Source of the DNA: Costus lasius
Taxonomy: Eukaryota > Streptophyta > Magnoliopsida > Zingiberales > Costaceae
DNA: 64,000 bases
NCBI GenBank assembly: GCA_027563935.2
Contig: JANVAS020000203.1
Span: 3,038,001-3,102,000, forward strand
Direction of reading: 5' to 3'
Below the pieces are notes generated by a model, which saw only the letters and a list, made by a program, of their open reading frames with translations, was not told the DNA's origin and made no database searches. A program made the translations under genes and the position numbers. Below are positions 1,140 to 63,511 of the stretch, one piece after another; the first letter of the stretch is position 1; the number at the start of each line of letters is the position of its first letter.

Positions 1140-2713
1140 TGTTGGGAAACCCCGAGGATATTTTATAAAATTTCAGAGATACAAATACATTGCGCAGCAG
1201 AAGAATACCCCCGAAACAGGCCAGTCCCAAAAACCCAGTGAAGATCACATGCAAGGGAATCGACACGATGAGATAGAAAATACCTTATGAGCGATGCGAG
1301 GCTGATGTCGTAGTAGGTGCCCAAGTGTGCGCCCTCTGCAGTCTCACACACACGGATCACCTCGAGTCCTCTTCTTCCACGCCTGGTGCTAGCCTCGGGA
1401 AGAAGATCCAAGCCTTAGGTCACCTTCTTCTCAACTTGCGCTACCTCCAAGGTATATGCGCCAAGGTTGAAGAAGGAAAAGGGAGATGCCAACAAGCACA
1501 AGTCACACTTGCACCACCTTCAATAGAAGAAGCGCCAAGGATGAAGAAGAAGAAGTGCTTGCAGCTTGGTTGATGAAGAGATGCGCCAACTCCTCTTGAT
1601 CCTCTTGCTCTCGCCCCTCCTCTTGTTCTCACGCCTTTAATAAGTTGTGTATCATGAGAGGGGGCGGCTAGGGCTTATTATATAGAGCAAGGGGCGGTTA
1701 GAGTAGTGGCTAGGAGAAGAAGTAGAAATAGGATTATTTTAATGATTTAATTAAGTCCTAATCCAATTAGGATTCTAATTAATCATTTAAATAATCAAGT
1801 CTTAATCAAATTAGGACTCTAATTAATAATTTTAATAATCAGCCCTATTAAATAGGACTCCATACAATTATTTAAATTAATTAATTAAATAACCCACAAA
1901 TAATTAATATCAAATTATATTAACCATATGTGCCGTAGGCGCCAACCCTAGTCTAACTAGGGTTAACCATGCGCCTACACATCCTTCTCCTTAAGCCCAT
2001 TACCCCCAACTTTTCAATGGGCCCAGCCCAATGTCCATTATGCATATTAACCAAGCCCTTGGATCCAATCCAATTTAACCCGAGGTCAAATTGGGCTAAC
2101 CATGGCTAATATGCCGTAAATGGAAGTTGGCTCCAATAAATCTCTTCCATCTCATCAGGCCCATTGGCGCTGATGGAATCTCCAAAATAGATCCGAGTTA
2201 TCCAATAACTCGATCATAAGGCTTCTCGATCAATACGAGAACTCGAGTATCAAGGTGTGCGACCCTATAGGTTACTCTGACGTTGGCAGTGCTGACCTAA
2301 GTTCATCACAAGCAGTGAGTGGCACCTAGCAGTGCATCGCTGCTACCCAAGTCATCGGAATGGATATCGACATCGAGATCCCTATTATCGCAAGTAGGTA
2401 CCGATGCATTACAGTCTCTTTGCCGTACTGATATCTGATTGGACAAGTGTGTCACCACTTGTTTTTCATCCAATCTCATGGCTATGACTAAATCAGGTCT
2501 AACCTGGGTATGACCATACACTTTCAGTCATAGATCCATAGAGGAGCTCCATGGATATCAAGCTTCCCTTAGGAAGGGGCAAATCCTATGTCTGTCTATT
2601 GACCTTCTCATATGGGTCGTGACATGCTCAATGACAACCGTTATTACCCCCCAACTACGGTGAGGTGTTAGGTTGTATCAAAGCATGTCCCTAACCATAT
2701 AAAATGGCCAATG

Positions 2714-13350: not shown

Positions 13351-16320
13351 TGTAACATCCCACATTCTTAACCCCAAACAAATGGCACAATTCACAAATG
13401 ATACAGGATGTTTCATATAAGATCGATCATATGCTAGGTAAAACCGAGTTCAAGAAAACACGATCTGAAAAATTTCATAAATCCATACACACAAATTCAC
13501 AAAACTCAAATCTCATAAGGGTACCTGCCACCACGCAATCCTTGCACTAGACATATGCAAGGCAACAGTTATATCAAATCCGATGGCATAAATACAATTC
13601 GATTCGAAATTCAAAACAAAGCCACAAAGTCGATTTTATAAACTCATACCAAACACCGAAACTAGGCTGAAGCCCGCGGTGACACAAAAATCAAACTCAT
13701 AAGACTGCCATAGCCGGCAACACAATTCACATAATTCACATGGTTCACATAGTTCATATAATTCATGTTAAGGCCACAACCGGCCCCCAAGAATTAAGCA
13801 CAAAAGTTCTTAAAACAGCAAATAGCATAATTATCCACGCCAATGCACTCAAGAAATGCGCCCCTGCTCTATGCCTGAAAATAATGAGGGGTGAGCTACA
13901 CAGCCCAGTGAGTGGATAGTCTAAACCGACCATCCAGAACATACATTCAAAAATATAGGCAGATTATTTTAAAAATCTTTAACAGGAACATTATGTCAAC
14001 ATATAACAAAATAAAGAAACAGAAGTCATATAGACAGTCAGATGTACACACTAGCATATAACAAACTCAGGTTCTAGAGTTTTACTCTAAACCAATTAAA
14101 CACATATATTCTAAACCAACTAAACACACCATACTTAATTAACCTAGTTGTCCAGCATAATCAGTAGTGACCAATATGGTCTAACCCGGCTTGGCCAAAG
14201 CACTGGGAGCTGCAAAATCTCGTGCAACACATAAACATGGATAGTGAGTAGAATCAAGAGGTGGCCCCCGCCAGGTCACGACGTGGCACTTTGCTCTATC
14301 ACTCCATAACACATCGATGGATTGTGTGTAGATTCAAGAGGTGGCCCCCGTCAGGTCATGACGTGGCACTTTGCTCTACGACACCCCATATCACAAAATG
14401 AGAGTGATGACATCAAGAGGTGGCCCCTGTCTGATCAAGACATGGCACTTTGCGTCTTATATCACCCCATAACATAAAAGAGTAATGACATCAAGAGGTG
14501 GCCCCTGTCCGACCAAGACATGGCACTTTGCGTCAAAACCCGTTCTCCCAAAAGGTTCCTACTGGACAACAGACATATCTTATTTCATATTTCACAAAGG
14601 TGGACTCCTAAGTGTCAACTAGACTCTAGGATAGTCATCACAAAATCATATCGGGCAGGCTGAACATCAACCCCCATCACAATAATCATAATAGGCAGGC
14701 TGAACATCAACCTCCTCACATGTCAAATACAGGGCTGAAATTCAAACCCTTAACATATTACATACGGACTATCCCCTTTGAGTACACAGTTACACTTAGC
14801 CTTAGTCCTAACCATCACATAGCACATAATATCCGAATTCACATAACCACATAATTTTCATAAGTCACATAACCACATAATATTCCAAATTCACATAACC
14901 CGTTACATAACACATATTATTCCAAAAATCTCATAACATATCACATAATATTTCATATTCAAATAGTGTAGTCCTTAGATTTCATGCTAATTAGTTCAGT
15001 CAAAACTTGCTATGTTATCACTCAAATTTCTCAAACAATTTCTCAACATAGTCCTAAGTATATAACCATATACTATAAAATCAACTTAAAATTTTCAAAC
15101 AATTTCTCAAACAATTTCTCAAACAACTACCACATATATGTTAACTAAAAATATCAAATTCGGCTTCCATACATATTATCAAGATTTCGGTTTAACTACA
15201 ATTAACAAGGTTTCGGTTTTCATACATGCTACAAAAATCATTGATTTAATGTTACCAAAATTGATTTCGGTTTAACTATAATTAACAAGAATTTCATACT
15301 CAAAATTCAATGATTTAATGCTACCAAAATTCCTACAAAAATACCTTAAATTTCATACAAATTTTCGGTTAAATAATCATCATATAATCACCTTTGAAAA
15401 ATTCGGTTTTCATGATATAATCAACTTTACAAAATTCGGTTTTCATGATATAATCAACTTTACAAAATTCAGTTTTCATCATGGTAAAGTCTTGAATTTC
15501 GGTTTTAGCATGGTAAGATTTCCAACAAGCAAATATATCATCTAACACATCAATTAACACAAACAAATAGATAGAAATCGATTAGACACTCCACTCACCT
15601 TGAACCGTGAATACTAATAAGAAAACCCTTCCAAAAATTCGTCTAGAGTCTTGCCACCACCAAGGGAAAAGAACGCCACCCAAATCAAAGATGCCGGCCA
15701 AGGAAAAGGAAGAGGAAGAGGAAAATCGTCCAAGCCTTCAAAGAAATCGCCCCCTCCTTCCTAGCCGTCGCCCAAGTTTTTCTTCAAGCCCAAAAGTCGC
15801 CAACTCTCTACCCTAACCGAAATTACCTACTTAAATTTCGGTTTTTAAGGTTTTAACCCTCTAACCAATTAATTCAAAAAGGGTTTAACCCATTAACCCA
15901 TTAATTCAAATTTTAAAAACCCAATAATCCCATAGTCTAAGTGAAAGTCCAATAAGAGTTAATCTAACATCCAATAAGCTAGTTAACTAATTAATTTAAT
16001 TAACTTACAAATAACCAATCACTTAACCGAAATCCAATAAGGATTTAATTAATATCCAATAAGGATTTAAATTAATTTATCCTAAATTAACAACCAATAA
16101 TCAACCATTAATCTCTAATTAATTTACCATAAATTAACAACCAATATAAATCACAAATCAAATAATTACAAATTAACAATCAATAAGCCAGTTAATTAGC
16201 ATCCAATAATTTTATTTAAATCATAATAAAATATCACAGCTAATGATTTATTTAAATCCAAATAATTTTATTTAATTCAAAAATAATGCTTACCAGGACT
16301 TAAGATCCTTGGATCTTACA
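13351..16320 (-). repeat. G1 5' LTR
   Basis: 2970 bp, aligned without gaps to 5604-8573 at an offset of 7747. Differences noticed are all C/T (for example near 13676, 13899, 15151 and 15908). It should hold the G1 promoter, but I cannot place a TATA box with confidence. It ends in GGATCTTACA followed by the target duplication ggtgg. Confidence 0.93.
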
Positions 16321-18090
16321 GGTGGAGCCCTGATGAGCAAAACAATTGATGTTTCTTTCAGATTGCTAGAGGAGATGGCATTGAATCACAATCAATGGAC
16401 TACTGAGAGAGGAGTACTTTGCAAGCCTTCTCAAGGTAAGGGTGAAAGTGATGGATGGCGATCCGTTGCAGAGAAGGTAGACTTTTTGTGCAATAAGTTT
16501 AATTCTATGCAGACCGTTTCTATTTCTTCTTTCACTTGTGAAATTTGTGGCAATGATGGTCATACTTTTGAAAATTGTAGAATAGTTGTTGATCAGGGTA
16601 ATGAGCATGTGAATGCCATAGGGAATTATAATCAAAGTAGATCTAATGATCCCTATTCTAGTACTTATAACCCTGGATGGAGAAATCACCCCAACCTTTC
16701 ATGGAAAAACAATAACAATGTAGGGGGAAACACTGAGAATAAGGGATATCAAAGACCAAATCAGAATTCAAACATAGAATCCATGCTTGAGAAAATATTG
16801 GCCAACCAAAATCAATTCATGCAAACCACATATAAAGAAATTGAAAACCTTAAGGGAATGGTTAGTCAATTAGCTTCACAGATGGGATCCATGGAAGCTC
16901 ACACCAAAATTCTGGAAAATCAAATAACACAACAAGCGAGTGTACCTTACAGGCCCCCTGGGAAATTTCCTGCTAAACCTGAGATAAACCCTAGGGAGCA
17001 CTGTAATGCCATCATGACTAGAAGTGGAAAACAACTAGGAGAACCTAGAGGGAGGTTTGAAAAAACTGAAAAAGGGCTTGTTGATAATGAAGAGGAATTA
17101 GAGTTAGGAGAATCTTCTTCACATAAGGAATCCCAAACTTGTTTACCACCTCAAAAGGGTGATGAACCAAAAGGAGATGAATCATGTGAGAAAGACAATC
17201 CTAAACCTAATTTGTCTTCACCTTACAAGCCACCCAAAACCTTTCCCCAAAGGTTAGCTCAGAATAAATTAGACAAAAAGTTTGGCAAGTTCCTTGAAAT
17301 CCTGAAAAAGCTTTATATTAACATTCCATTTACTGAAGCTATTTCTGAAATGCCATCTTATGCCAAATTTTTAAAAGAGATTTTGTCTAACAAAAGAAAG
17401 TTAGAAGATTATGGCACTTGTACTGTTACTTTGACTGAAGATTGTAGTGCTATCATACAGAACAAACTGCCACCAAAACTGAAGGATCCAGGTAGTTTTC
17501 CTATACCATGTTCTATAGGCACTATGGCTTTTGACCGAGCCTTATGTGACCTAGGTGCTAGCGTGAGTCTAATGCCTCTTTCTATTTACAGGAAACTGAA
17601 TATTGGAGAGCTAAAGCATACATTCATATCCTTACAGCTCGCGGATTCATCGGTAAAGTATCCTGTAGGTATATTAGAAAATATCCCAATAAAAATAGGT
17701 GAGTTTTTCATTCCTGCAGATTTTGTAGTGTTAGACATGGAGGAAAATTCTAGAAATCCTATAATTCTTGGTAGACCATTATTAGCCACTGCTAAGGCAA
17801 ACATAGATGTGAAAGAGGGAAAGATTACTTTTGATATATGTGACAACAAGATTGAATTTAATCTTAATGATTCATTGAACAAACTTTCATACTCAGAATC
17901 TTGTTGTAGTGTTAAAATATTTAATGATGATATTTATGATGTGTCAAGCTTATTTGATGAAACCTCAGATTATGAATCTAACAATCTTTCTGAGGGTATT
18001 GATAAGAAATTGCAGAAGAAAAAGACAAGAAGGAAGAGAAGAAGATCAAAATTGATGGAGAGAGGAAAGAAAATTTGGAGCAAATTTTGA
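16321..18090 (+). pseudogene. A1 gag C-terminus and aspartic protease
   Basis: This is the third piece of A1 gag-pro, resuming at GGALMSK after G1. An in-frame TTG upstream lies in the G1 LTR and is not a real start. Counting from that TTG, a zinc knuckle (Cys77, Cys80, His85, Cys90) is followed by a low-complexity Asn/Gln region, a Pro- and Lys-rich linker, and a retroviral-type aspartic protease with DLGAS at 414-418 and ILGRP at 486-490. Athila proteases normally carry this DLGA form. The C-terminus is very basic (565-593) and stops at 18090, exactly where Athila Pol would go on to reverse transcriptase. RT, RNase H and integrase are absent from the whole element. The piece itself has no stop or shift. 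Confidence 0.88.
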
Positions 18091-19204
18091 GATTATTTCA
18101 AGACCGAGCTTTATGTTATTCAAAGAGATGCCCAAATCAAAAGAAAATCAGAAGGGCAATCTAGGAGTTCATGATCAAATCTGAGTGTAAAAGGGTCAAG
18201 CTAATGACCTTTCAATTAGCGCTTCTTGGGAGGCAACCCAAGCTTTCTAACTTTAGTTTTGCTTTCTTTTATTTACGTGTTTTAATTTTGTTTTAGGACT
18301 AATTTTTACAATTTTTTTTGTAGGATACAAGATTTGGCGCGAAATTACGGCACTACTGTAACCTCCTTTGCGGTACCGTAATCCCGGTTATTTTTAACCA
18401 GAGAGTTTTAACCCGTTACGGTACCGCCGTAAATTCCTTTACGGTACCGTATTTTGTGACAAAATCTTCCCGATAGTTTTTTGTTTTATGGCAGTACCGT
18501 AAACTTGTTTACGGTGCCGTTATTTTTGAATTTTTGAATTTTGAATTTTTTTTAATTTTGAATTTTTTTAATTTTGATTTTTTTTCAAAAAAAAATTTAT
18601 TTCTGATCGATATTACGGCACCACTGTAAACTTCTTTACGGTGTCGTAACCACTACTGCTTTTCAACCTGAGAGTTTTTTTTACCATCACGGCACCGTCG
18701 TAAATGTCTTTACGGCCGTAAATGTATCTGGAAGACACGATAAAGGGGTCATAACCTAAATTCTTCCGCTACCGTTTTGAGGTTTTCTTGCTCGCTCGTG
18801 CACCGATCTTGAAGCTCCGACCTTCGGAAGACTCAGGCGACCCCTCCCGTCCATTTATCGCCGCCGATCTAGTACTCTCTCGTCCGATTTCACTGTTTTA
18901 GCGAGTTTTGACCTAGTTTCCGCCCCCTTTGCTCATGTGCTTTCGTTTCTCAGTCAATTTTGGTGCTTTTTGTTTCTATCTGCTCATGAGAGGATAAGCT
19001 ACTGTTTCTTTCTTGTTTCTAGAGATTTTAACTGATATCTAGGGAGATCTGAGTTGAAAAGTGATGAACACGCTTAGGGTTTACTGTTCACCATCGCCCT
19101 TTTCGATTTTTCATTGATTTCTGAGTCCAAGCATCACTTGAAGTTGACATCTTACTTGATTATCCTTATTTGTTGCCATATACTTGCTATATCTATGTTG
19201 AATC
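18091..19204 (+). other. A1 non-coding stretch where pol is missing
   Basis: No gene is seen. GCGCTTCTTGGGAGGCAACC near 18220 is a sequence that in Athila elements usually follows the integrase end, which suggests that pol was lost by deletion between the protease and this point. A T-rich run (about 18530-18600) and the palindrome array (18344-18722) follow. A family-A LTR interrupts at 19205. Confidence 0.65.
18344..18722 (+). repeat. Palindrome array in A1 internal region
   Basis: There are about five units. Each has an imperfect palindrome of the type TTACGGCACTACTGTAA followed, after 5-8 bases, by a GGTACC-centred one such as TTTACGGTACCGTA. Starts are near 18344, 18416, 18489, 18613 and 18690, a spacing of about 72-77 bp with one longer gap. 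The same motif family recurs in the A1 LTR (25661-25915). Confidence 0.85.
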
Positions 19205-22200
19205 TGTTGGTGTATATGCCCTTGGACCCGTTGTTGGTCCATCTTGTACTACTTGACTTTGATATTTAATATATATCGTACTGGTATTGTCGTTATTATG
19301 CTGTGTTTACATCTGCGATTATGTAAATGGATAATAATGTCCCTGGAGACAGATTGTATCTGTGCTCAAATGGTGTGTCCCCAGTCGAATACCTGAGTGG
19401 ATAAGGGACAGCTCTAGTGTTTGGGTCCCCTTCAAGGGGGAGCGCAAAGGGGGAAATCCCTAAAGGTGGCGCATGTGTGATTCTTTTGCAGCGGAAGATA
19501 GGGATTCAAGATCAAAATAGCATGTCGTATGATCAACTCTTATGAGATGTATAAATCGGATGAGATTCATACCATTGCCATGAAGATTGGACTCGACTTG
19601 GAAGCAAGAGAACGATAGGGTTCTCCTCCAAAGTGTGCCACACACAAGAGGATGTTGGCCTACTCCTTGTCATCCTTGTGCTAGCAAGGCTTCAAGGTTC
19701 TTGTCGTATGAAGGAGAAGAAAAATCAACTTTCGGCAAGGGCGATGAAGCTTCTCTTTTTCGTTTTCGTCTCCGATCGATCGATCACCAAGCAAAGCCCC
19801 AACATGCGTTTAAGCGTTTTCTTCAAGAGGCGTTACATGATTTCCCAAGATGGAAAGTCATGAAGCTTTCGCCCACTCAAAGCAAACCGCCCTTTAACGC
19901 TTCCATCTTGAACCAATCCGTTCACACATGTGTGAACCGGTTCAATGGAATTCGGTCCAATGCTTTTGGTTCAAAGACCAAACCAAAACAACCCAAGCCA
20001 TGGTCTAGATCTCTCTCTGAACCAAACGGTTCAAGATCTAACCGTTGATCTCTTGATGCTTCTGATCTCACTGATCTAGCATCACTACTCTCGATCGAAG
20101 CTTACCGATCTCAAGCCCTAATCAATCAAACATGATCAGACCAGATCTCACTTACAATCAGAGTCCAAACTCCTTTAAACTGAATCAAAACAATTCAGTC
20201 CACACGATCTGACTTAAGCAAGCCATATCATCAAATTGTGCGACCCTAAGGGTTTCCTTTAAATGTCGGTAACGACAACTTACGTTATCACGATCAGTGA
20301 GGGGTATCTAGCAACACATCACTGTCTCCCGATATAAAGGAAAGAGTCTTCCAAGACTACTCCCAAATCACAGCACAAGTGTGAATCTTCTTCACAAGGC
20401 ATACATGTTTCCTTTGCCACTGGATGTTCTTATTGGACAAGCATGTCAAGCCTGTAACTCCAATACGATGAGCATGATTAGATCAGATGATCACAGTCAT
20501 CTGGGTATGGCCATACACTTTCTCAATCATCTCATATAGGGGGGCCCTAGAACATCACACTCCTTTAAACAAGGAGACGGCAATCCTGTATCTATCACTA
20601 GTGTCCTAACCTGACTCTTGATCATCATCCAAGATAGTCTATAATCATTATATTTCAAATGATATTGAACTACCTCAAAATAATGACATTCATCATTTAG
20701 AAACACAAGTGATCTCAAGTCAAAGGACATGTGCCACTTGTAGCATACAAGGATTATTCACATTGTGACAAGCAACCGAATATCCTAGTAGGGTCTGTCC
20801 AGTACATCCAATGTACCCATGACTCTACATCTTATTCCATGCTCGAAGCATCCTATAAGATTAGAACTCATATTAGTCTCAATCATATCAGGGCTGTCTC
20901 AAGTTCACCAAGATATCTCGACTAAGGACATTACTGCATGTCAGCCTAGCTGAACAGCTTTGAGACATTAATCAGAAGTACACTTATTACAGCAGACAAG
21001 GTAACAATCTGAATAACAACCATGCCTTTATAAACTTAAGAGTTTATTACATGATACTGTTACAATCCCAAGGCCTCAAACATTAGCCTTAAGGGCATAC
21101 TCCAACATCTAGTACATGTGAGACTGGTATATGGGCTGGCTACGCACGGGGTGCTAACGCAAGCATATAGGTATATCAGTGGTGGATATACTGGACCGAC
21201 CCACTGTGAGGCTTTAACTTGGTGTCATGAGTTAAGCTCATAAGTGACAGGAGATGCATTGATCTATCAACTTGAGGTCATTGACTCTTCTATATGGTTA
21301 GGGACATACTTTGATACAACCTAATGCCTCGCCGTAGCAGGGAGGTCATAACAGTTGTCATTGGGTATGTCACAACCCATATGAACAGATCAATAGACAG
21401 ACATAGGATTTGCCCCTTCCTGCGGGAAGCTTGATATCCACGCCCCCCCCCCCCCTATGGTTGCATGACTGAGAGTGTATGGTCATACCCAGGTGAAAGC
21501 CTGATCTAGTCATGACCATGAGATTGGGTGAAAACAAAGTGGTGATGCACTTTGTCCAATCGGATATCAGTCTGGCAAAGAGACTGTAATGCATCGGTTT
21601 CTTGTTGCGATGATGGGGATGTCGATGCTGATATCCATTCCAATGACTTGGGTAGCAGCAATGCACTGCTAGGTGCCAATCACTGCTTGTGATGACCTAA
21701 GTTCATCACTGCCAACGTCAGAGGAACCTACAGGGTCGCACAACTTGAAACTCGGGTTCTCGTATTGATCGAATAGCCTATTGATTAAGTTATTGGATAA
21801 CTCAGATCTGTTTGGGAGAATCCATCAGCACCACTGTGCTAGATGAGATGAAAGGAATCATTTAGAGCTAACTTGTTTTTAGGCCTAGTAGGCCAAATGG
21901 GCCCAATGGGCCATTTGGGCCAAATGGGCCCAATATACCAAGTTGGGCTAATAGGCCAAATGGGCTCAATAAGCCATTTGGGCCAATGGGTCAAATGGAA
22001 TGGCGCAAGCTACTTGGAGTGAGCTTGGCGCATTTCCTTGAGGTGGACAAATCCAAGTTGGACATCTTCTTAAGGTGAGAAGCTTGGAGCTTCTCACTTG
22101 GAGTGGGTGAATGTACTTGGGCGCATGGCACTTGGAGTGGGCGAAATGGGTTTTACCTCTTGAAGAGGTGTGTCTCTTCATGAAGAGGTGTGCCTCTTCA

Positions 22201-22791
22201 CCAGTGAAGAGGTGCACCTATTCATGGGTATATAAACCCCCTTCCTCCCTCCTCGTCACAACTCTTGAACTCTTACACCCTTGTCCCCCTTGTCGCCACT
22301 CCTGGAAAGAGGGAGAGGGATGTTCGCCCATTGCCTCTCCTCTACCCTTTAGTGAGTTCGGAACTTTGGAAGCTCCTTGGCGCCCTCCTCTCCAAAGTTG
22401 GACTTTGGCTTCGGTTGATTCCGGTTCGGATCTTGGTGGAGTGCTTCAAGAGTTGGACTCCGACGAAGCTCCACCTCCTCTCCTTGGCATCTCCTCTGGA
22501 GTTGGCACAAGTGATTGAGGAAGTCTCCCAAAGGCGTGGATCTTCTTCCCAAGGCTAGCACCGGGCGTGGAAGAAGAGTATTCGAGGTTTGGCTATGTGT
22601 GAGACCGCAGAGGGTGCACATTTGGGCGCCTGCATCGCATCAATTAATTTGCATTAAGGTATCATCTCCTACTCACCATGTCGATCTCCTCGCAAGACTC
22701 GATCTTCTGGGTTTTTGGGACTGGCCTATTTTGGGGATTGCTTCCGTTGTGCTTGTCTGTAAAATCTTAAAATCCCCGGGGTTTCCCAACA
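19205..22791 (+). mobile_element. Family-A solo LTR in A1 (TSD gaatc)
   Basis: It begins TGTTGGTGTATATGCCC and ends GGGGTTTCCCAACA. gaatc flanks it at 19200-19204 and 22792-22796. Without the nested family-B LTR it is about 1.9 kb with no internal region. A likely TATA box is GGGTATATAAACC near 22227, preceded by TGGGCC-rich repeats (about 21885-21990) and by stems such as CTCTTCATGAAGAG (near 22173). Open frames at 22111-22621 and 22515-22870 lie in the transcribed part of the LTR and match nothing. Confidence 0.9.
19418..21107 (-). mobile_element. Family-B solo LTR (TSD tctag)
   Basis: The plus strand starts TGTTTGGGTCCCCTTC and ends GCATACTCCAACA, the inverse of the family-B LTR start. 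tctag flanks it (19413-19417 and 21108-21112). At 1690 bp it matches the LTRs of C2 and C3 in length and order of modules, and its outer edge is closest to the LTR at 34441. No coding region. Confidence 0.9.
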
Positions 22792-22821: not shown

Positions 22822-24243
22822 ATGCCACTAAGAACCAAGGGGCTTGTCGCCAAGAGAAAAGGAAAGGCACCAGCTAAGCCTTCCTTTCCACCCAACCCAC
22901 ATGAAATTTTGTTCAGAAATGAAATTCAAACTGCAATATATAATCAACTAGTTGAGAGAAGAGTAATTGCCACCAAGTATGCTGATAAGAGAACCTTAGA
23001 GACATTGGGTTTGCATGAAGATGTCATGTGGATGTTTGAGCAAATCAAAGCCCAGAGATTCTTCCAAATGACACCACAAACATATCTACCATTGGTGCTT
23101 GAATCTCTGAGTAGTTTTGATGTGCAGCTGTATGAGTATAGTGAAAGACATGCAGATGGTTATATCACCTTCTGCATGGCTAATGTAGAAAGGCAGCTAT
23201 CCATGCAAGACTTGAGAACCATCTTCCAGTTTGGTACAGGAGGCCGCACATCAGTTTCAGTGGGGTATGCGGAGGATGTGTTTTGGAATCAAATTACTGA
23301 AGAGACCCACTTTTTAGCACATACTGCTAGAGCTTCAAAGATTTCCAATCCTTGCATCAAGTATGTTCACAGAGTTTTGGCCCACACTGTCTTTGGTAGA
23401 GGTGACAGGGATGGGATGGTGAGGCAAGCTGAGTTGTTCTTTTTATAGAGTATGCTATTTAGATATCCCTTATATGTTGCCTTTTTCTTCATGAAACACT
23501 TGGAAAAAGTTTCTAGGGCAAAGAAAGGAGCTATTGTGATAGGTGGTTTCATTACACCTATAGCCCTGTACTTAAGAGGTGAGCCATATGGGATAGAGAT
23601 TGCAAGAGGGAGTCCAAAACTTGACATGGAATCTTGTATTGCAATGAAAATGGTGATAAGAGAAGGGGATAGTTTTTCACTGATTCTTGGACCTAGAGGA
23701 CATAAGTTACCACTTCCATGCACCGAGAAGACCACAATTAGAAACCAAGAGAACTGGAGGTTGGTTTCAGAAGATGCCGACATTGCTATGCCGCCCCCTC
23801 TTAGTACCATACCACCACCACCCTGGGGTGGTAATGATGATCTTTTTGGGATGGGCATGGAGCAGCCATCTGGAGCTGCAGATTCTTCCACCCATCAGAC
23901 TTCTGATAACAGATTCTCCAGTGCCTTCGATCCCAGATTCAGATATCTTTCCACTCAGCTGTACCGACAGGAGCAGAGGATGGAAAGAGTGATGAACACA
24001 ATGAGTGACATGAGAGGTTCCATGAGCCAGATGACTGATCCTATGCATCACATGCATAAAGACATTGAAAATCTGAGTACCTATATGGAGGAGATGGGAA
24101 ACTTCTTGTATGAACGTTTCAATTTTCAGGATCCTAGGAGGAGTGGAGAGTATGGAGGACCCTAGAGAACGCCACCTATTAATCCTATGGATGCCACAGC
24201 GCAAAGCACTGAAGAGATAGGATCTGATGACAGTGAAAATTGA
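22822..24243 (+). pseudogene. A1 Athila ORF-1-like protein (two TAG stops)
   Basis: From the ATG at 22822 the frame reads a basic start (MPLRTKGLVAKRKGK), then a conserved globular part resembling the Athila ORF-1 / plant transposon protein family found 3' of pol. In-frame TAG codons interrupt at 23446-23448 and 24163-24165, with the same frame continuing to a TGA at 24241. The second part has a Pro-rich segment (PPPLSTIPPPPWGG) and Met-rich, probably coiled sequence (MERVMNTMSDMRG, near 23980-24090). The role of this protein in Athila elements is unknown; an envelope-like role has been proposed, but I see no clear membrane segment. The first stop probably replaced TGG. It is the only non-gag gene left in A1. 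Confidence 0.75.
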
Positions 24244-25403: not shown

Positions 25404-27199
25404 TGTTTGATGACACCAAAATTTATCGTAATTTCTATGCCATTTTGTTGATGGTTTTGTGTCATATTCATAGACTTTGCTTATTTTTATGCTCTTTTTA
25501 TCAATATTTGCGGAATCTACACTCTTTTCTGTTTTTAATTATTTTCAAGCAAAAAGGCATGTTTTTCAGTCGATTTCGAGCAATCCAAGTGCATAATTGA
25601 ATTCACAACATCAAAAGGAGATCACACGTCAATTTCAGAAGACTTGGAGCTTCAGAGGAAATTACGGCACCCCCAATATATTCTTTACGGTACCGTAATT
25701 TGGAGGTTTTCCGGGCAGAGAATCTCATATGATTACGGCACTACCGTAAGCATCTTTACGGTGCCGTATTTTGGAGCGTTTTTGATCAGAGGATCGATGG
25801 AGATTATGGTACTACCGTAAGGAACTTTACGGTACCGTATTTCGGGTCAATTTTCAACCCGAAAGATTTAGACATTACGGCACTACCGTAAACAACGTTA
25901 CGGTACCGTAATTACGACGCTACTCGCGACTTTCCCAGTCAACTCCGAAGCCCAATTTTTGTGCGGTTGATTGCGGATGATCCAGGCACTTATATTCGAA
26001 GTTGTAAGAAGGTGAGAGGAGTCATCACCGAGACGAAGACAAGCACACAAAAAGCCCTAATTTTCGTTCACCATAGAGAGAGAAATCGCCTCACACGCCG
26101 CCGCCCTAGGTTTCACCGCCGGGAAGCGTACAGTGCATCTCCGGCCGTGAAATTTAAATGGAAGCTATGCATAGAGGGGGAGAAGAAGCACCTAAAGTTT
26201 CAATGTGAACGGAGATCAGACGGGGGAGAAATCACCAGAAAATCGAGCGTCGCCGCTGTTCGTCCAGATTACGGCCGTACCGTAATTTTCACTCCTCCTC
26301 TGTTTTGATTTTCTTCATCATGAATCATTGTAATCTTCCCTCTATGATAGCTTAAACCTCTTTTGGGACATGGGGGAGTAATTCACTTGAGTTTTAATGA
26401 GTAGATGACTATCTTTTCTATTATTTCATCTCGTTTAATCTTAGCAAGATGATTTTACTCATGTGATGTTTTGTTCTTAGACTCTCCTTAGATCTATATT
26501 ATTATTTATGTTTTATAATTTTCGCTATTGACTGAAAAGTAATAGCTTGAGAATTCGGAACCCTAGAATTGCATGATAGGAATTCCTTTTAGGTTAGTTC
26601 TTGTTTGTTTGATTCTAGTAAGCTAACTGTCATGATAATAATATAAATCTAGGATTGAGTCTAAGCTTTCAAACGTGGAGAACTTGTGCGAAAGCAAAGA
26701 TTGGAACGTTAGAGAACCTTGAGTAAAACTAGGGTTGAGATTCGGATGCACGAAAGTAATCCTTGAAATTCCACTAGAGATTATCGACTTAGAACTCGGA
26801 TGCACGAAAGTGATTCTTGAGTTCTCAGTTTGATGATTTACTTATCATTAGCATTGGGACGACTCTTGCACAAGAGCAAAGATTTATCCCTGCATGGTTG
26901 TCTGCACGAAAGTGAGATAATCCTTTTATTCAAGTAAATTGCATCTTTATCATGTTGAAATTAAACTGATGAAATCCCTATTCATGTCTAGTCATAAAAA
27001 TTAAAGTGAACGAAACCCTAGTCCCAGCTTCTCTCTCTAATAATTCCATTTCAGCGCTTTGGTCTTCGTTTGCTAGTTTGCACTTTTTCAATTTCCTAGA
27101 TAGTGAAAAATCAATTATTCGGTACTCAACAATATAGGTCCCTGTGGATTCGATACTTTCTTTATTACTTCGAGTATCCGTACACTTGCGGACACAACA
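25404..27199 (+). mobile_element. A1 3' LTR
   Basis: It starts TGTTTGATGACACC and ends GGACACAACA, about 1.8 kb; the start could be two bases earlier. Its last 360 bases match the 5' LTR remnant (529-887). Four palindrome units (25661-25915) precede a weak TATA-like CTTATATTC near 25988. Another copy of the motif is near 26269. The right flank is ATGAC, the presumed target duplication, whose partner is outside the window. Confidence 0.88.
25661..25915 (+). repeat. Palindrome array in A1 LTR (U3)
   Basis: Four units start at 25661, 25732, 25804 and 25874 (spacing 70-72 bp). A typical unit is ATTACGGCACTACCGTAA, a few bases, then TTTACGGTACCGTA. The stretches between units are not conserved, so only the palindromic cores are shared. 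Confidence 0.9.
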
Positions 27200-28215: not shown

Positions 28216-30136
28216 TGTTGGAAAATTGCAGGCTATTTTAAAATTTAAACAACAGTGAAAGCGAAGCCCGAAACTAATTTCCACAAAGCAATAGAGGTTC
28301 CATACGAGGGAATCAATGGATGTGTCAAAGCAATACCTTAAGAGCATGCTGAGAGGTTGTTGATGATAACTGGATGAAGTACCCAAGCATGCGCCCTATA
28401 TACATATCACACACACGGACTCCTCAAGATCTCTTCTATCCATGCCTGGTGCCCAAGCATGGTCCCTTGGGCGCCAAGTCAAAATTGAGCCTTCACTAAT
28501 GTTGATTTCTAATTGACATGAGATGCATAATGCATCAAGGTCAACCAAGGTCAAAATATGGTCACCTAGAGGTCAACAGAGGTCAAGTAAAGCCATGCCC
28601 CAAAATGATAGTAATGCAAGTATCATTTTATTCTCCCTCTCTATGATGAGCTATAGCTCATCTGATAACATTTCTCTCCCAATCAAACTCGAATCATAAC
28701 ATGACTCGATCTATGACTATCTAATTAATATGAGATCTCAAGTGTCAAGGTATGAAGCCCTATAGGTTTCATCTAACATTGGCAGTGATAATCTAATGAT
28801 CGTTACAAGAAGTGAGTGTTGGTGTATATGCCCTAGGACCTATGGCTGGTCCAATATGTGTCATATTTATTCGTGATATTCCACATATCTTGGCATTGTC
28901 GTTATTGTGCATTTGTTATATCTGTATCATATGTACATTTGTATAAGTAATGTCCTTGGAGATATATTTTATCTAATCTCAGAGATTGTCCCTGGTCGAG
29001 TACCATAGTGGATATGAGACATCTATGGTATATGTGAGATTGTATATGTGTGGGTTGAGCACGTGTTGCTAACGTAGACATATGGGTATATCAAGGTAGA
29101 TATACTGGACCGACCCGCCATGAGGATTTGACTTGGTGTCTCAAGTTAAATCTCACAATGACAGAGGTACATTTGTCCTTGCCTTGAGGTCATTGATATC
29201 TCTATATGGTTAGTGGTACACTTTGATATAACCTAACGCTCCACCATAGTAGGGGAGTCAAAATGGTTGTTATTGAGTATATCATAAGCCATAGGAGAGG
29301 TTCAATGAGCCAAGACAAGATTTGCCCCTTCCTTAATGGGAAGCTTGATGTCCTTAGCCCCCCCCCCCCCCCCCATAGAAGCATGCTTGAAAGTGTATGG
29401 TCATACTCAAGTGAGAACTTGATTTAGTCATGACTATTAGATTGGGTCAAATAAGTGTGACACACTTGTCCAATCAGGATATTAACTTCACAAAAGGACT
29501 AAAGTGTACGAGTACTTTGTCGTAGTTTAGGGGCTATCGATGATGACATCTATTTTGATGACTTGGGTAGCAATGATGTCCTGCTAGGTGTCACTCATTG
29601 CTTGTGATGATATGAGGTTATCACTGCCAACGTTTGAAGTTGAGGTCTTATACTGATCGGATAGCCTTAGATCGAATCATTGTATGATGGTTCGGATCGT
29701 TCTAGGAGACTAGTACTTTGAGATTGCTTCTATGGGGATGAGATTTTATTTAGTTCATATTTGACCAGTAGTTGACTTCTAGTGGACTACGCTTGACCTC
29801 TATTGACCTAGGTGGTCAAAATGAGTCAAATAAGGGTCTTAGTGCAAGTTTGAACTTGGCACTTGAGTCACGAATAAATAAAATTATTAATTAGTAAGAG
29901 AAATTTTCTCTTAGCTGATTAAGATGGCTAGGTGCATTTACATTAATTATATTAATATAATTAATGATAAAACTTGGTCTATTCACCTATTTGGATAAAT
30001 ATTAATATATTTATTCTAAATTAGCCTAAGCGCCTACATATATGGTCAAATATATATTATATGGTTTTATTTATGCTTGGCGCCTAATTAAATAAAATAT
30101 ATCTATTCCTAGGCTCATGCAAGATAAATAAAGACC

Positions 30137-30140
<4 letters not shown>

Positions 30141-30182
<42 letters not shown>
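30141..30182. repeat. (TA)n microsatellite
   Basis: About 21 uninterrupted TA repeats within D. Confidence 0.95.
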
Positions 30183-30188
<6 letters not shown>

Positions 30189-30290
30189 CTAAAATAACAC
30201 TATGTCTTGTTATTATAAATGTAAGAGTTATTTTGAGGATTAGACCATGCAAGTTGCGCCTATAGCATTGCTGATGGAGCATGTTATAGG

Positions 30291-30557
30291 AGGAGTGGTC
30301 CTTATATGCTGTACTCTAAGGTGGTGGAACTTATGACGCGGAAAATGTGAGAGGGGCGTTCAGAGGGAAACCAGCGATGGAAATATGATGAAAACCTATC
30401 AGAATACTTATTGAGCAATATCGAAAGCACTGAGAAACCACGGCTTAACTCAAATAAACTACTAGCCTCTCGCATGAGCCAATCTTAATCAAGTGCAGCG
30501 ATAAGCAAACACAGTGGAGTGACGGATCAAGCCTCAACCATCCGCCCTAGGCACATC
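30291..30557. other. Unassigned sequence left of C2
   Basis: It does not match family A, family B or the gypsy LTRs here. It probably belongs with 45618-46657 on the other side of C2, because C2 has exact target duplications. No gene is seen. Confidence 0.5.
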
Positions 30558-50692: not shown

Positions 50693-51027
50693 TCCCAATA
50701 GTGAGGGGTGTATAGCAACACATCACTACTACCCAAGTCATAAAAAGGTTATCATCTTTGACATCCCCTAAACAGTAATAAAGTATCTATGTGATATAAT
50801 CCTTTTGCTCACTAATATCTTGATTGGACAAAGTATGTCACACTTTGTTTAACTCAATCTAATGGTCATGACTAAATCAGGTTCACAATTGAGTATGGTC
50901 ATACACTTTCAGTCATACACCCATATAGGGCTTGTGGATATCATGTTTTCCTAAGGAAGGGGCAAATCCTCTATTAGTCACTTGAACCTCTCATATGGCT
51001 TATGACATACCCAATGACAACTCTTAT

Positions 51028-52718
51028 TGAAGGAACCCCTAACTAAGGGGGAAGAAACCCTAAGCATGCTCATCTATCATGCATAGCGGAAAGAGGGCTT
51101 CAAGTCAAGATCGGATATGAAACAATATGATCAACTTGAAACTAGAAATCATACCAATGCCATGGACTTGGATCTCGGCTTGGAAGAAGAGATCAAGATA
51201 GGTCTCCTCCAAAGTGTGCCACACACAAGATGAAGTTGGCTCACTCCTTGGGGTCGCTTGTGCTAGCAAGTCACTCAAGGAATCTTCACTTGTCGAATGG
51301 AAGGGATGATGAACTTCCTTGTTGCCGAGAGTTCCTCTTTGCCCAAGCTCTCCTTCTCGTCGTCAACCACACCTCAACCAATGTCCAAGGCGTTGATGAG
51401 AAGAGTTCCAACGCATAAGCGTTTTTGGCGTTAAGTGAAACCGGCCCCCTTTGATGACTTTCCATAAATGGAAGCTCATCAAAGCATGCGCTCAAGCCAT
51501 AACCCAAACGCATTTGAGCATTGAACCATGCGTTCACAATTGTGAACCGGTTCAAGCTAAACCGTTCGATTCAACTTTGGTTCATGAACCAAACCGAAAT
51601 GGCTCAAGCCATGTGGTCTAGACCATATTGAACCCCAAGGCTCATGATCTAACCATTCATCACCTGATGCCCCTGATCTTTCCGATCTAGCATCATCTCT
51701 CTTGATCGAAGCTTACCGATCTCAAGCCTTAATCAATCAAACATGATCAGACCAGATCTCACTTACAATCAGAGATAAAATCCCTTTAATCTGAACTCAA
51801 AGAATCCAGTCCATTCGATCTGACTCAAGTAAGCCATATCATCAAATTGTGCGACCCTGAGGGTTTCCTCTAAATGTCGGTAACGATAACTTACGTTATC
51901 ACGATCAGTGAGGGGTATCTAGCAACACATCACTGTCTCCCGATATAAAGGAAAGAGTCTTCCAAGACTACTCCCAAACCATTGCACAAGTGTGACTCCA
52001 TTCACAAGGCATACATGTGTCCTTTGCCACTGGATGTTCTTATTGGACAAGCGGGTCAAGCTTGTAACTCCAATACGATGAGCATGATTAGATCAGATGC
52101 ACATTGTCATCTGGGCATGGCCATACACTATCTCAATCATCTCATATAGGGGGCCCATTAGAACATCACACTCCTTAAACAAGGAGACGGCAATCCTATG
52201 TCTATCACTAGTGCTCTAACCTGATTCAAGCTCACCATCCAAGATAGTCTATAATCATTATGTTTCAAATGATATTGAACTACCTCAAAACAATGACAAT
52301 CATCATTTAGAAACACAAGTGATCTCAAGTCAAAGGACATGTGCCACTTAGTGCTCACAAGGATCATTCACATTGTGACAAGCAATGGAATATCCGAGTA
52401 GGGTCTGTCCAGTACATCCAATGTACCCATGAGTCTACATCTTATTCCATGCTCGAAGCATCCTATAAGATTAGCACTCATATTAGTCTCAATCATATCA
52501 AGGCTGTCTCATGTTCACCAAGATATCTCGACTAAGGACATATAGCCTGTCAGCCTAGCTGAACAGCTTTGAGACATTATTCAGAAGTACACTTATTACA
52601 GCAGACAAGGTAACAACCTGAATAATAACCATGCCTTTTATAAACACAAGAGTTTATTACATGATACTTATACAATCCCAAAGGCCTCAAACATTAGCCT
52701 TAAGGGCATACCCCAACA
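51028..52718 (-). repeat. C3 3' LTR
   Basis: 1691 bp; the plus strand starts TGAAGGAACCCCTAAC and ends CATACCCCAACA. It matches 58553-60243 at a constant offset of 7525. AAGTGGGAGAT on the minus strand (52719-52729) is the adjacent polypurine tract. Confidence 0.95.
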
Positions 52719-56623: not shown

Positions 56624-58552
56624 GGTGTTCGTTGCTGCAGGAATCTACAACAAGCAAGAACAGCAAGGTTAGTATCAATGTTTCAGAATCAATCCAGGAC
56701 TTAAGAAAGATTCTTTTCTCACTATTTTGTCTGACTGAAAAATCCAGTAAACAGTCCGAAAGAGTAACACTCTTTTAGTGAGATGGGATCCAGATTTCAT
56801 ACTTGGTCTCCGCGTCCCGCTCAGGCGAGATAAGATGCACAGAGATGACAAGTACTAATTTCTGGTAGGCTGTGCCAGCCAATCGCCAACCCGTGCGATT
56901 CCCCTTCATCTTGGCAATCCAGCAGACTGTGCCAACTGAGTTGGTACAACACAGTCTCTGATCCCAGAGATGGCTGCCTCCATGTGCTACCATATGCGCC
57001 ACATATGTAGCCAACATGGTCAAGCTGACCTGACCTACTCCCTGGACCACCACGTGCTATGCTGAGCAACGAGAGGGGATAAATCCCAACTCTGTAACAC
57101 GCAGGTGAAATCCAGCACCGTCTGAAGATAGGTGGACGTGCCCACTGAGTGGGTTCAACACGGCTCCAACGATAATCAGAAAGGTGAGGTTTCGCGTCAG
57201 AAGGCTTACGAGCTTGATATGTTAGCGTTGGATTTTATCGGTCTTTTATCTTCTTAACTATCATACAAGTCCTATGGTGATAGCAGAAGATAAACTTAAA
57301 CATGCAATTCTAATTATAAGCAATAAGAAGAAAGCATGATCTTATGTGGTAAAAGCCCATGAACCCTAGTAAGACCTTAATTTACTTAAGTCTTCACTTG
57401 AGCTCCTTGCATCTCATCTGGTCCAACCCAGTGCCCTAGCGCCAAGAGCACCTCAGGTGCACCACCAGATGAATGCCCCTCTTGGATGTGTGCACTTGTC
57501 TAATCAAAGTACATTTGATCTATCTAGACAAGGTTGACTCGCAGGTCAACTACATATTATAAATTAAGTACAATGTGATTCGCAGATCACAAATTAATTT
57601 ACAACTTATCCAGGCTCGCAGGCCCCAGCACAGCACACAATAGGGCAACCCACATAAGACTAAATAAACAAGCATATGATTCAATCAACATGTGATCCAT
57701 TCAAGAAATTAAATTTTGGAAAAACCCATGGCATCAATTTAATTTCCTTATGAGCCCTACAACCTTACAATGGTCCATTGATGGGGATCCACTCATCCAT
57801 CTAGCTAGATCCTTTGCCCTTGCATGCACCGAGTCCTAACTGACCCGAGTTGACCTAATGGTCAACCATGCATGCCCCAAGGGCTGAACCACCCCATGAG
57901 TTTTGGCAAGCGGGTGTGACCCCGGGCCTAACTCAAGTGTGTTCAGTAGTTGTCTCAACCAGACCTCGCTACACGCCCTAGATGCAGTCAACCTATAGCC
58001 ACCTTGTGCTTGCGCATAGGTGCTATTGGGTCAACCCATCTGAGCTGTCAGATGGTCTGATCAGACTTGGATCCAACCTAGTGGTGACTTCAACCTCATC
58101 AACCCATCTAAGGGTTTAATGTAGTGGCACCTTAGATCTAATGAAGCGCGCAAGAGGTAAGTTTTAGAAAACTTTTATAACATGCGCAATGTTACAAACA
58201 AACAACATGCTTGATAACCCTTAGATCTAAGGGGGTCCCCTTCAAGGGGGAGCGCATACTTTAGGAGGTCCCCTTCAAGGGGGAGCGCATACTTCAGGAA
58301 CATATGATACAAGCGCAACATCATGAACATATAAGCGCAACATCATGAACATATGATACAAGCGCAACATCATGAACATATAAGCGCAACATCATGAACA
58401 TATGATACAAGCGCAACATCATGAACATATAAGCGCAACATCATGAAAACAAAGCATGCCTCAAGGAAACAGTAAGCGCAACATCATGTATGGATCACCA
58501 ATACTTAAAGCAATCATATCGATCATATCATGAGCCTAGCTCTGATACCAAT
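56624..58552 (-). other. C3 leader with tRNA-iMet primer site
   Basis: 1.9 kb non-coding, homologous to 32610-34440. On the minus strand TGGTATCAGAGC (58539-58550) lies two bases from the 5' LTR. Tandem repeats occupy 58234-58450. Confidence 0.9.
58234..58450. repeat. Tandem repeats in C3 leader
   Basis: Two copies of GGTCCCCTTCAAGGGGGAGC at 33-bp spacing (58234 and 58267) precede alternating units of AAGCGCAACATCATGAACAT (about 58310-58450). The first motif is the LTR edge of a sister family-B group (compare 34446 and 19425). Confidence 0.85.
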
Positions 58553-60243
58553 TGAAGGAACCCCTAACTAAGGGGGAAGAAACCCTAAGCATGCTCATCT
58601 ATCATGCATAGCGGAAAGAGGGCTTCAAGTCAAGATCGGATATGAAACAATATGATCAACTTGAAACTAGAAATCATACCAATGCCATGGACTTGGATCT
58701 CGGCTTGGAAGAAGAGATCAAGATAGGTCTCCTCCAAAGTGTGCCACACACAAGATGAAGTTGGCTCACTCCTTGGGGTCGCTTGTGCTAGCAAGTCACT
58801 CAAGGAATCTTCACTTGTCGAATGGAAGGGATGATGAACTTCCTTGTTGCCGAGAGTTCCTCTTTGCCCAAGCTCTCCTTCTCGTCGTCAACCACACCTC
58901 AACCAATGTCCAAGGCGTTGATGAGAAGAGTTCCAACGCATAAGCGTTTTTGGCGTTAAGTGAAACCGGCCCCCTTTGATGACTTTCCATAAATGGAAGC
59001 TCATCAAAGCATGCGCTCAAGCCATAACCCAAACGCATTTGAGCATTGAACCATGCGTTCACAATTGTGAACCGGTTCAAGCTAAACCGTTCGATTCAAC
59101 TTTGGTTCATGAACCAAACCGAAATGGCTCAAGCCATGTGGTCTAGACCATATTGAACCCCAAGGCTCATGATCTAACCATTCATCACCTGATGCCCCTG
59201 ATCTTTCCGATCTAGCATCATCTCTCTTGATCGAAGCTTACCGATCTCAAGCCTTAATCAATCAAACATGATCAGACCAGATCTCACTTACAATCAGAGA
59301 TAAAATCCCTTTAATCTGAACTCAAAGAATCCAGTCCATTCGATCTGACTCAAGTAAGCCATATCATCAAATTGTGCGACCCTGAGGGTTTCCTCTAAAT
59401 GTCGGTAACGATAACTTACGTTATCACGATCAGTGAGGGGTATCTAGCAACACATCACTGTCTCCCGATATAAAGGAAAGAGTCTTCCAAGACTACTCCC
59501 AAACCATTGCACAAGTGTGACTCCATTCACAAGGCATACATGTGTCCTTTGCCACTGGATGTTCTTATTGGACAAGCGGGTCAAGCTTGTAACTCCAATA
59601 CGATGAGCATGATTAGATCAGATGCACATTGTCATCTGGGCATGGCCATACACTATCTCAATCATCTCATATAGGGGGCCCATTAGAACATCACACTCCT
59701 TAAACAAGGAGACGGCAATCCTATGTCTATCACTAGTGCTCTAACCTGATTCAAGCTCACCATCCAAGATAGTCTATAATCATTATGTTTCAAATGATAT
59801 TGAACTACCTCAAAACAATGACAATCATCATTTAGAAACACAAGTGATCTCAAGTCAAAGGACATGTGCCACTTAGTGCTCACAAGGATCATTCACATTG
59901 TGACAAGCAATGGAATATCCGAGTAGGGTCTGTCCAGTACATCCAATGTACCCATGAGTCTACATCTTATTCCATGCTCGAAGCATCCTATAAGATTAGC
60001 ACTCATATTAGTCTCAATCATATCAAGGCTGTCTCATGTTCACCAAGATATCTCGACTAAGGACATATAGCCTGTCAGCCTAGCTGAACAGCTTTGAGAC
60101 ATTATTCAGAAGTACACTTATTACAGCAGACAAGGTAACAACCTGAATAATAACCATGCCTTTTATAAACACAAGAGTTTATTACATGATACTTATACAA
60201 TCCCAAAGGCCTCAAACATTAGCCTTAAGGGCATACCCCAACA
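58553..60243 (-). repeat. C3 5' LTR
   Basis: 1691 bp, same as the 3' LTR. It should carry the C3 promoter. Open frames inside are shared with the other family-B LTRs and are not genes. Confidence 0.95.
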
Positions 60244-61354: not shown

Positions 61355-61937
61355 TGTTGGTGTATATGCCTTGAGACGTAGTATTGGTCCATCTTCGTAC
61401 TACTTAACTCTGATATTTATATATCTTTCTGGCATTGTCATTATCTATGTTTGTTTACATCTGCGATTATGTACTTACATGATAATGTCCCTGGAGACAG
61501 ATTGGATCTGTGCTCAAATAATTGTCCCTAGTCGATGTACCTGAGTGGATATGGGACAGCTCTGGTACTTGTGAGACTAGTATATGGGCTAGTTAGGCAC
61601 AATGTGCTAACGCAAACATATGGGTATATCAGTGGTGGATATACTGAATAGATCCACTGTGAGGTAATGACTTGGTGTCATGAGTTATCCTCACAAGTGA
61701 CATGAGATGTATTGATCCCTTGACTTGAGGTCATTGACCATTCTATATGGTTAGGGATATGCTTTGATACAACATAACACCTTGCCATAGTTGGGAGGTA
61801 ATAATGGTTGTCATTAAGCATGTCATGACGCATATGAGAAGGTCAATGGACAGACAGAGGATTTGCCCCTTCCTGAGGGAAGCTTGATATCCATGGAGCT
61901 CCTCTATGGTTCTATAACTGAAAGTGTATGGTGACAC
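61355..61937 (+). mobile_element. Family-A LTR, 5' part
   Basis: It starts TGTTGGTGTATATGCC and follows other + strand family-A copies through GGGACAGCTCTGGTACTTG to GAAAGTGTATGGT, where A2 interrupts. The last five bases, gacac, may be the A2 target duplication. Confidence 0.8.
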
Positions 61938-63511
61938 TGTCCGTAAGTGCACGGAAATGTCGCAGTAATACAAAAGATATCGATCCCACAGGGAGCAAGG
62001 TGAGTACTAGAAAGTCTAATTTTTCAGAATCCAAGCTAATCGAATCGTGGTTTTTAGAACTTTAAAAACTAAAATTAAGCGAAATCGTAAGCAAGAAATC
62101 AAACAACTATGGCAGGGAAAATATATGAGAGAGAATTTTAGGGCAAAGGTTTCCACCACTCTGACGATCTTATATGCGCTATGAAATAAATAACGGCTAT
62201 TTGGATTTACAGGTCTGCATAAGGAATCTACCTTATTGTACGAAGGTGCCCTCTTTCGAGTGAACACCCCGGTGTTTGCCTAGAACGTCTCCTACTTTCA
62301 CGGTGGACCGTTTTCGACAAACCCAATGGGTTCCGTGGTAGATTATGGATCCTCGAGCGAAGGGCAAGCACTTTCGCGTAAAGCCTTCACAAGATTCACA
62401 TAGAGGTTCGGTCGTTACGGTCCTACTCTCGTTATGAACCGTAACAACTATAACATGATAATACTTGGCTAGAGTACAAATCAAGAAATCAATACATCAA
62501 GTGAAATATGCTAAAGATATGATCTAAATAACAAAGTTATTACAAGAGTTGCATATAAAGATCGTCAGAGGGCTTTAACCTAGCCCTAAAAATAGGTTTA
62601 CGCTACAACCATCGTTACAACGCTCAAAATCCTCTCTTTAATCATGTGAAAATCACAGGAAAAGGTTTCTAAGAGGGAGGAGAAGATAAACCGAACAGAA
62701 CAAGCAAGAATCGCGAGGTTCCGATGATCCAATTTTCAAAAATCCACTTGAAGTCGCCGAATCATCGTGTCCGTCCGCCCTAGCCGCTTTGTCACCTGAT
62801 TGATTGATGATTAGGTCACGGAAATTGGGGCTTTTATATTCCATCTGTTCGTCTTCGAGTCAGCTTTCCAAAAAATCCTCACTTGCTGAATTTGGAGTTG
62901 AATCGGCCGGGAATCAGCGAAAGACCGAGTGGAGGTCGTGCTGTTCCGACGCCTTCACGGGTGAACCCCGCGGGGTTCACCAGCTGGTGAAGTGCTCGGA
63001 ACTCTTTTGTTGCAAAATAATCACAGGTGAACCCCGTGGGGTTCACTACCGGTGAAAGCCTCAACGTACTTCTGTGCAGGTATCTTCAGATGAGATCACG
63101 GGTGAATCCCATGGGGTTCACCTACCAGTGAAGTGTGCAGCAGCTTTCAGAAATCTCGACATCATCGGTGAATCCTGCCGGGTTCACCATGTAGTGACAT
63201 GCGCGCTGAAATCCTTCCTTCGGCAAGATCATGGGTTCACCTGGCCGTGAAGTCCAGAGAAGGCTCCGATTGAGCCCAAATTTTACGGGCAGCTTCGTCT
63301 TCTCATAAGGAATCACCTCATGCTTTTAGATTCTTCAAAAAGGCTTCAAAATTGGGTGATTTTACCTGAAATTCAATAAGACAGATGAAAAGTGAAGATT
63401 CTGAAGTTTTTAACTAAATAAGTCTTAAAGGAGTATGAAATCTTTAAAATAGGCCTAAATTAATCATGGAATAATAGTAAAAATCACTACTAAAATGCAA
63501 GGTGTCAAATA
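61938..63511 (-). mobile_element. A2: Athila-like 3' LTR
   Basis: Read on the minus strand the LTR starts near TATTTGACACC (TG probably decayed to TA) and ends CACTTACGGACA; compare TGTTTGATGACACC and CACTTGCGGACACAACA in A1. Inverted GCTTGAGGACAAGCAA (near 63528) lies just outside, as before the A1 3' LTR. A TATA-like ATATAAAAGCC (minus, near 62829-62839) lies downstream of the palindrome array. The ends are approximate. Confidence 0.75.
62960..63250 (-). repeat. Palindrome array in A2 LTR (U3)
   Basis: Four units and one half unit. The first (62960-62981) is a perfect 22-bp palindrome made of GGTGAACCCCG and its reverse complement. Others at 63026, 63101 and 63167 carry a few changes, and a half site lies near 63233. 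Spacing is 66-75 bp. Each is followed by a short CAGTGAAG or TGGTGAAG-like half site. Confidence 0.92.

Follow-up and report, generated by a model that had tools for sequence, protein, structure and literature searches.

An Athila-like LTR of Costus lasius, referred to here as A2, carries an array of compound palindromic units upstream of its TATA-like box, and a second Athila-like element, A1, carries the same design in a different sequence at the same place in its LTR and again before its env-like ORF. Both elements lie in the window, the whole stretch of 64,000 nucleotides that was analyzed. The arrays are probably (with a probability of roughly 0.6) family-specific, multi-copy candidate sites for a dimeric factor, at the promoter of the LTR and perhaps at that of env. 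The units, their geometry and position, the second A1 array, and the better preservation of half-sites than of the gaps within the cores and the spacers between them are direct observations. The evidence comes from a single A2 LTR, a single full LTR of A1, and a single internal array of A1 (Table 1).

Table 1. Features of the two Athila-like elements and of the C3 insertion, in positions of the window
Feature	Position	Strand	Remarks
A2 Athila-like 3' LTR	61932..63507	-	TGACAC...GTGTCA ends; end in common with A1 LTR
A2 half unit	63236..63251	-	Single dyad; half-sites at 63251 and 63241
A2 unit 1	63161..63198	-	Decayed
A2 unit 2	63095..63132	-	
A2 unit 3	63020..63056	-	One base shorter
A2 unit 4	62954..62991	-	Contains two perfect palindromes
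A2 TATA-like box	62831..62838	-	TATAAAAG
A1 gag-protease-like ORF, 3' part	16309..18090	+	Plant homologues
Second A1 array	18345..18723	+	Five units, starts 18345, 18416, 18486, 18613, 18687
C3 LTR-type insertion	19205..22791	+	Separates second A1 array from env-like ORF; target duplication GAATC
C3 LTR dyads	22155-22226		TGAAGAGGTG...CCTCTTCA; run up to C3 TATATAAA at 22229
A1 env-like ORF piece	22822..23448	+	Pfam ATHILA ORF-1, PF03078, E 2.6e-25 (scanned from 22810)
A1 Athila-like 3' LTR	25404..27199	+	
A1 LTR array	25662..25911	+	Four units, starts 25662, 25733, 25804, 25875; TTACGG/CCGTAA
A1 TATA-like sequence	25991..25998	+	TATATTCG; weak

Anatomy of the arrays

The A2 LTR is 1576 bases long, with the array at bases 257-554 and the TATA-like TATAAAAG at base 670. 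The coding part of the element lies beyond the window, and A2 is seen here as one LTR. The original prediction described four units and a half unit upstream of a TATA-like box, and both parts of the description are borne out. Starts of the GTGAAC half-sites on the minus strand fall at 63240, 63187, 63121, 63046, and 62980, giving a pitch of 53, 66, 75, and 66 bp with the half unit first, and the minus-strand array precedes TATAAAAG at 62838, with 116 bp between the end of the array and the box.

Each full unit is not a single palindrome; it consists of four half-sites that alternate in orientation within 37-38 bp. The half-sites of A2 are TTCAC(C) in the forward and (G)GTGAA in the reverse orientation, at offsets 0/10/26/32 with slight departures in unit 3, which has one base fewer, and in the decayed unit 1. 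The palindrome on which the A2 units had been centered corresponds to the two inner half-sites and the run of C/G between them. Unit 4 holds a perfect palindrome of 22 bp (62960-62981), overlapped by another of 16 bp (62976-62991).

The half-sites of A1 are TTACGG forward and CCGTAA reverse, at offsets 0/11/23/31. A1 is taken as the element whose 3' LTR spans 25404-27199; in this LTR of 1796 bases, the array occupies bases 259-508 at a pitch of 71 bp throughout, one half-site of its first unit is lost, and the TATA-like sequence is at base 588. The offsets recur in four of the five units of the second A1 array (0/11/23/29 in the fifth), where the unit starts are spaced 71, 70, 127, and 74 bp apart. 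Departures from the half-site consensus among the nine A1 units comprise six C-to-T and zero G-to-A changes on the sense strand, a tiny sample.

The two LTRs have little sequence in common. Comparison by blastn aligns the terminal 57 bp at 79% identity (E 3e-8), and the remaining matches are 10-21 bp long with E values of 0.1 or worse. The claim that the palindromes of A1 and A2 share no sequence agrees with this result, as only the last 57 bp rise above noise. Descent of the two arrays from a common sequence by divergence is rejected, as blastn gives no U3 match. Judged by sequence, A2 is related to A1 outside the array, through the LTR end and through TTGCTTGAGGACAAGCAA, which precedes both LTRs. 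The likeness of design and place is tighter than had been claimed: the arrays start at nearly the same base (259 in A1 and 257 in A2), and both are built from units of four alternating half-sites.

Coding regions of A1

The second A1 array follows the gag-protease-like ORF and precedes the env-like ORF. The gag-protease-like ORF yields no Pfam match; its homologues occur in many flowering plants (120 listed of 5163), and the listed ones carry gag (PF03732) and protease (PF13650) domains. No pol lies between this ORF and the second array. The downstream gene of A1 is ATHILA ORF-1 (PF03078), as is characteristic of Athila elements, and the env-like piece has zero homologues among 123 candidates. 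When the C3 insertion is removed, the second array lies ∼500 bp from the env-like ORF. The element is fragmented by nested insertions across the first 27 kb of the window. An A1 5' LTR end, 96% identical to the end of the 3' LTR, is located at 528-887 and is followed by TGGCGCCGTTGCC (feature 528-906), which we take to be primer-binding-site-like.

Searches for relatives of the coding and non-coding parts were directed at several sequence collections. Neither the gag ORF and env-like ORF of A1 nor the unit patterns of A1 and A2 have a relative in viral contigs, an alignment of 16 gag rows (15 of the 120 listed homologues and A1) finds none in viral and genome contigs, and the A2 U3 finds none in plasmids.

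Chance and conservation

The number of perfect dyads in the A2 U3 with arms of 6 or more is ordinary (three, reached by 81 of 500 shuffles), and the longest arm of 11 bp is reached by none of the 500. With mismatches allowed and 300 dinucleotide shuffles per stretch, there are four dyads in the A2 U3 against a shuffle mean of 0.42, six in the A1 U3 against 0.38, and five around the second A1 array against 0.71, and none of the 300 shuffles reaches any of these counts; two of the five dyads at the second A1 array are A/T-rich and do not belong to the motif. In the R-U5 and the 3' internal stretches of A1 and A2, dyads are at ordinary levels when compared with 300 shuffles. A scan of the whole window for clusters ranks C3 first, the A1 LTR array second, and the A2 array third, with an A2 score of 36, no higher than the top score from 20 shuffled windows; the 12 leading clusters listed do not include the second A1 array.

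The units are tandem relatives and therefore not independent events, which makes the sequence that was kept a better test. The A2 cores are 74-89% alike, and in alignment the A2 spacers do not rise above shuffled letters (as good in 274 of 500 shuffles). The nine A1 cores have a mean identity of 74% versus 34% for the spacers in ungapped comparison; with gaps allowed, the A1 spacers keep some similarity (as good in 0 of 200 shuffles). Inside the cores, half-site columns score 0.93 versus 0.74 for gap columns in A1 (permutation p 0.0003) and 0.96 versus 0.74 in A2 (p 0.0004), the half-sites having been defined after looking. The fifth unit of the second A1 array (18687) was excluded from the pair counts and from the A1 column test because its last dyad is shortened, and was retained in the comparison of cores and spacers. 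The A2 half unit was excluded from the A2 tests.

Palindromes in other LTR families

The suggestion that the arrangement itself matters, with a putative recognition sequence particular to each family, survives in part. It is favored by the preservation of half-sites and not of A2 spacers, while its framing as an Athila peculiarity does not stand, as dyads also precede the TATA of the C3 LTR. The idea of palindrome clusters as an Athila-specific feature is rejected on this ground and on a comparison of LTR stretches from five families, and an Athila-only framing is too narrow. Several LTR families may have in common that each carries a palindrome of its own in front of its promoter.

The best 350-bp cluster was evaluated in 10 LTR stretches of five families. 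In six stretches 0-2 of 200 shuffles attain it, against 16-65 of 200 in the other four, which include both Gypsy2 LTRs. The C3 dyads GAAGAGGTG/CACCTCTTC overlap at a pitch of 20-24 bp and end 3 bp before TATATAAA (22155-22236), and two related LTR stretches in the window (1140-2713 and 28817-30300) have dyads that are different or weaker. Two identical copia LTRs, at 51026-52718 and 58551-60243, contain the perfect palindromes GTTCACAATTGTGAAC and TTTGGTTCATGAACCAAA at 51532-51593 and 59057-59118. In a copia protein search, the top matches have ∼50-56% identity and come chiefly from Hibiscus and Trifolium.

A proposed role at promoters

Multi-copy sites of two-fold symmetry at fixed spacing upstream of TATA resemble the clustered sites of dimeric factors, an argument from anatomy. 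The A2 array would be a cis-regulatory module within the U3 of its Athila-like LTR, made up of four full copies and a half copy of a compound site, with TTCAC/GTGAA half-sites over ∼38 bp in each full copy. Each unit would be occupied by a dimeric or tetrameric DNA-binding factor, and the copies would jointly drive or gate the LTR promoter ∼116 bp downstream. A1 would carry the same module made from TTACGG/CCGTAA at the same LTR position, with a second set before the env-like ORF that would serve an env promoter. As A1 has sites both at the LTR and before the env-like ORF, one factor could control genome-length and env transcripts.

The envisaged env promoter has a precedent in Athila6A of Arabidopsis, for which a promoter of the ENV ORF is reported (PMC4977677). 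Athila6A resembles A1 as a member of the Athila lineage whose env ORF has a promoter of its own, putative in A1, and differs in that the portion of the publication available describes no palindrome array (PMC4977677). A 2020 review that places the transcription of env-like genes at the 5' LTR promoter counts against an env promoter (PMC7264820).

Alternative explanations

An alternative that we consider unlikely is that the palindromes act as RNA. Hairpins in the transcripts (in the 3' U3 and before env) would yield small RNAs and give the host a handle for silencing, or would perform a function in the RNA of the element. All arrays fold far better than their shuffles, none of which is as good; the folding z is -4.35 for the A2 sense strand, -5.75 for the other A2 strand, -7.19 for the A1 LTR, and -6.22 for the second A1 array. 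Small-RNA production is therefore a serious rival to the binding-site explanation, or a by-product of the palindromes, and the palindromes of maize Sireviruses are described as small-RNA hotspots (PMC10760457, PMC5311732). The retention of the half-site letters argues against an RNA reading, as does a genome-wide search in Arabidopsis in which targets of DCL3-RdDM showed no correlation with palindromes (PMC4977677). No pair is changed on both sides in the three structures tested, in few sequences with little variation, and there is therefore no sign of covariation. Conserved pairing as a demonstrated property was set aside, the tested pairs being without double change and the sequences too few to decide.

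LTRs readily gain tandem repeats, and a chance palindrome may have been duplicated by slippage or unequal exchange without any function. Such neutral expansion appears improbable. It is consistent with the residual similarity of the A1 spacers and with the number of Athila-like LTRs seen, which is two only. It is opposed by the agreement in LTR position and in the layout of the units between two LTRs with no other likeness in U3, by half-sites that are kept while A2 spacers are at background, and by the recurrence of the offsets in the second array of A1.

A narrower version of the binding-site explanation, in which a factor encoded by the element (ATHILA ORF-1, the env-like protein, or a different one) would mark its own family in the manner of VANC, is improbable. 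In its favor, family-specific repeated non-coding motifs parallel the targets of VANC (PMC5735166, PMC10398659), and the LTRs of a sunflower Athila clade show a drop in methylation that is not linked to palindromes there (PMC12844716). Against it, the motifs of VANC are described in a single orientation and not as palindromes (PMC5735166, PMC10398659), Pfam gives only ATHILA ORF-1 and no DNA-binding domain is recognized in the two env-like pieces, their comparison with PDB sequences yields nothing below E 0.18, and a structure model of the env-like piece built without an alignment has a pLDDT of 35 and is uninformative.

Comparison with known systems

The design of a repeated palindrome before a promoter is already known from Sireviruses and is found here in Athila-like LTRs; no account of palindrome arrays in Athila LTRs was found among the titles and abstract openings listed in searches of the open-licence PMC literature. 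A 2016 study reportedly described clusters of palindromes in the LTR regulatory region of maize Sireviruses, with strong predicted folding and small RNAs mapped to them. The arrays of A1 and A2 are alike in their clustering in the LTR regulatory region and in their strong folding, with small RNAs mapped in maize and folding alone observed here. Ty3 elements of maize are reported generally to have no obvious structure peak (PMC10760457).

Bousios et al. in 2010 described palindromic repeated motifs (RM boxes) in 13 Sireviruses, 12 of which have a CGG-CCG core, the one without it being Tnd-1 (PMC2829016). Within LTRs, 92% of RM copies lie in the first half, starting 200-400 bp in and upstream of TATA, and nine env-bearing Sireviruses have extra copies before ENV (PMC2829016). 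Both A1 and A2 display this LTR layout, and A1 has the extra copies upstream of ENV in its array at 18345-18723. The CGG-CCG core is present in A1 (TTACGGTACCGTAA and TTACGGCACTACCGTAA) and absent from A2 (TTCACC/GGTGAA). RM boxes mostly form CpG islands (PMC2829016). The A1 arrays are rich in CpG, with an observed/expected ratio of 1.71 and 1.87 (GC 44% and 36%) against 0.54 in the window, and in the A2 array it is 0.74, below the 1.15 of its own R-U5. Palindromes of its own sequence in each element, with conserved boxes and diverged flanks, are common to the Sirevirus motifs and to A1 and A2 (PMC2829016). Unlike RM boxes, the unit of A1 and A2 comprises four half-sites whose offsets are fixed, and units follow at a pitch of 66-75 bp.

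Sireviruses are Ty1/copia elements and A1 and A2 are Athila-like (Ty3); A1 and A2 are therefore not Sireviruses, and the design alone is common. Pfam scans detect no copia domain in the A1 ORFs covered, with ATHILA ORF-1 found instead. The assignment of A1 to the Sireviruses was rejected on these grounds, together with the gag and protease homologues of A1. RM boxes were called Sirevirus-specific in 2010 from a Ty1/copia data set (PMC2829016), a label that contrasts with the presence of the design, including a CGG-CCG core, at an Athila-type LTR promoter and before an env-like ORF.

Env-bearing elements from two superfamilies that are unrelated, Sireviruses of the Ty1/copia type and Athila elements of the Ty3/gypsy type, might have converged on, or exchanged, a family-private compound palindrome at LTR and env promoters, read by a cognate factor that is encoded by the element or recruited; we consider this conceivable but improbable. 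The comparison raises the question of whether a single regulatory logic with family-private keys operates in env-bearing plant retroelements, and whether the key belongs to the host or to the element. If such a logic exists, each family would recognize its own copies, as VANC does for VANDAL. The VANC/VANDAL system shares with the arrays short, family-specific, repeated non-coding motifs with little sharing between families, and differs in that VANDALs are DNA transposons, their motifs have one orientation, and the binder has been shown to be encoded by the element (PMC5735166, PMC10398659).
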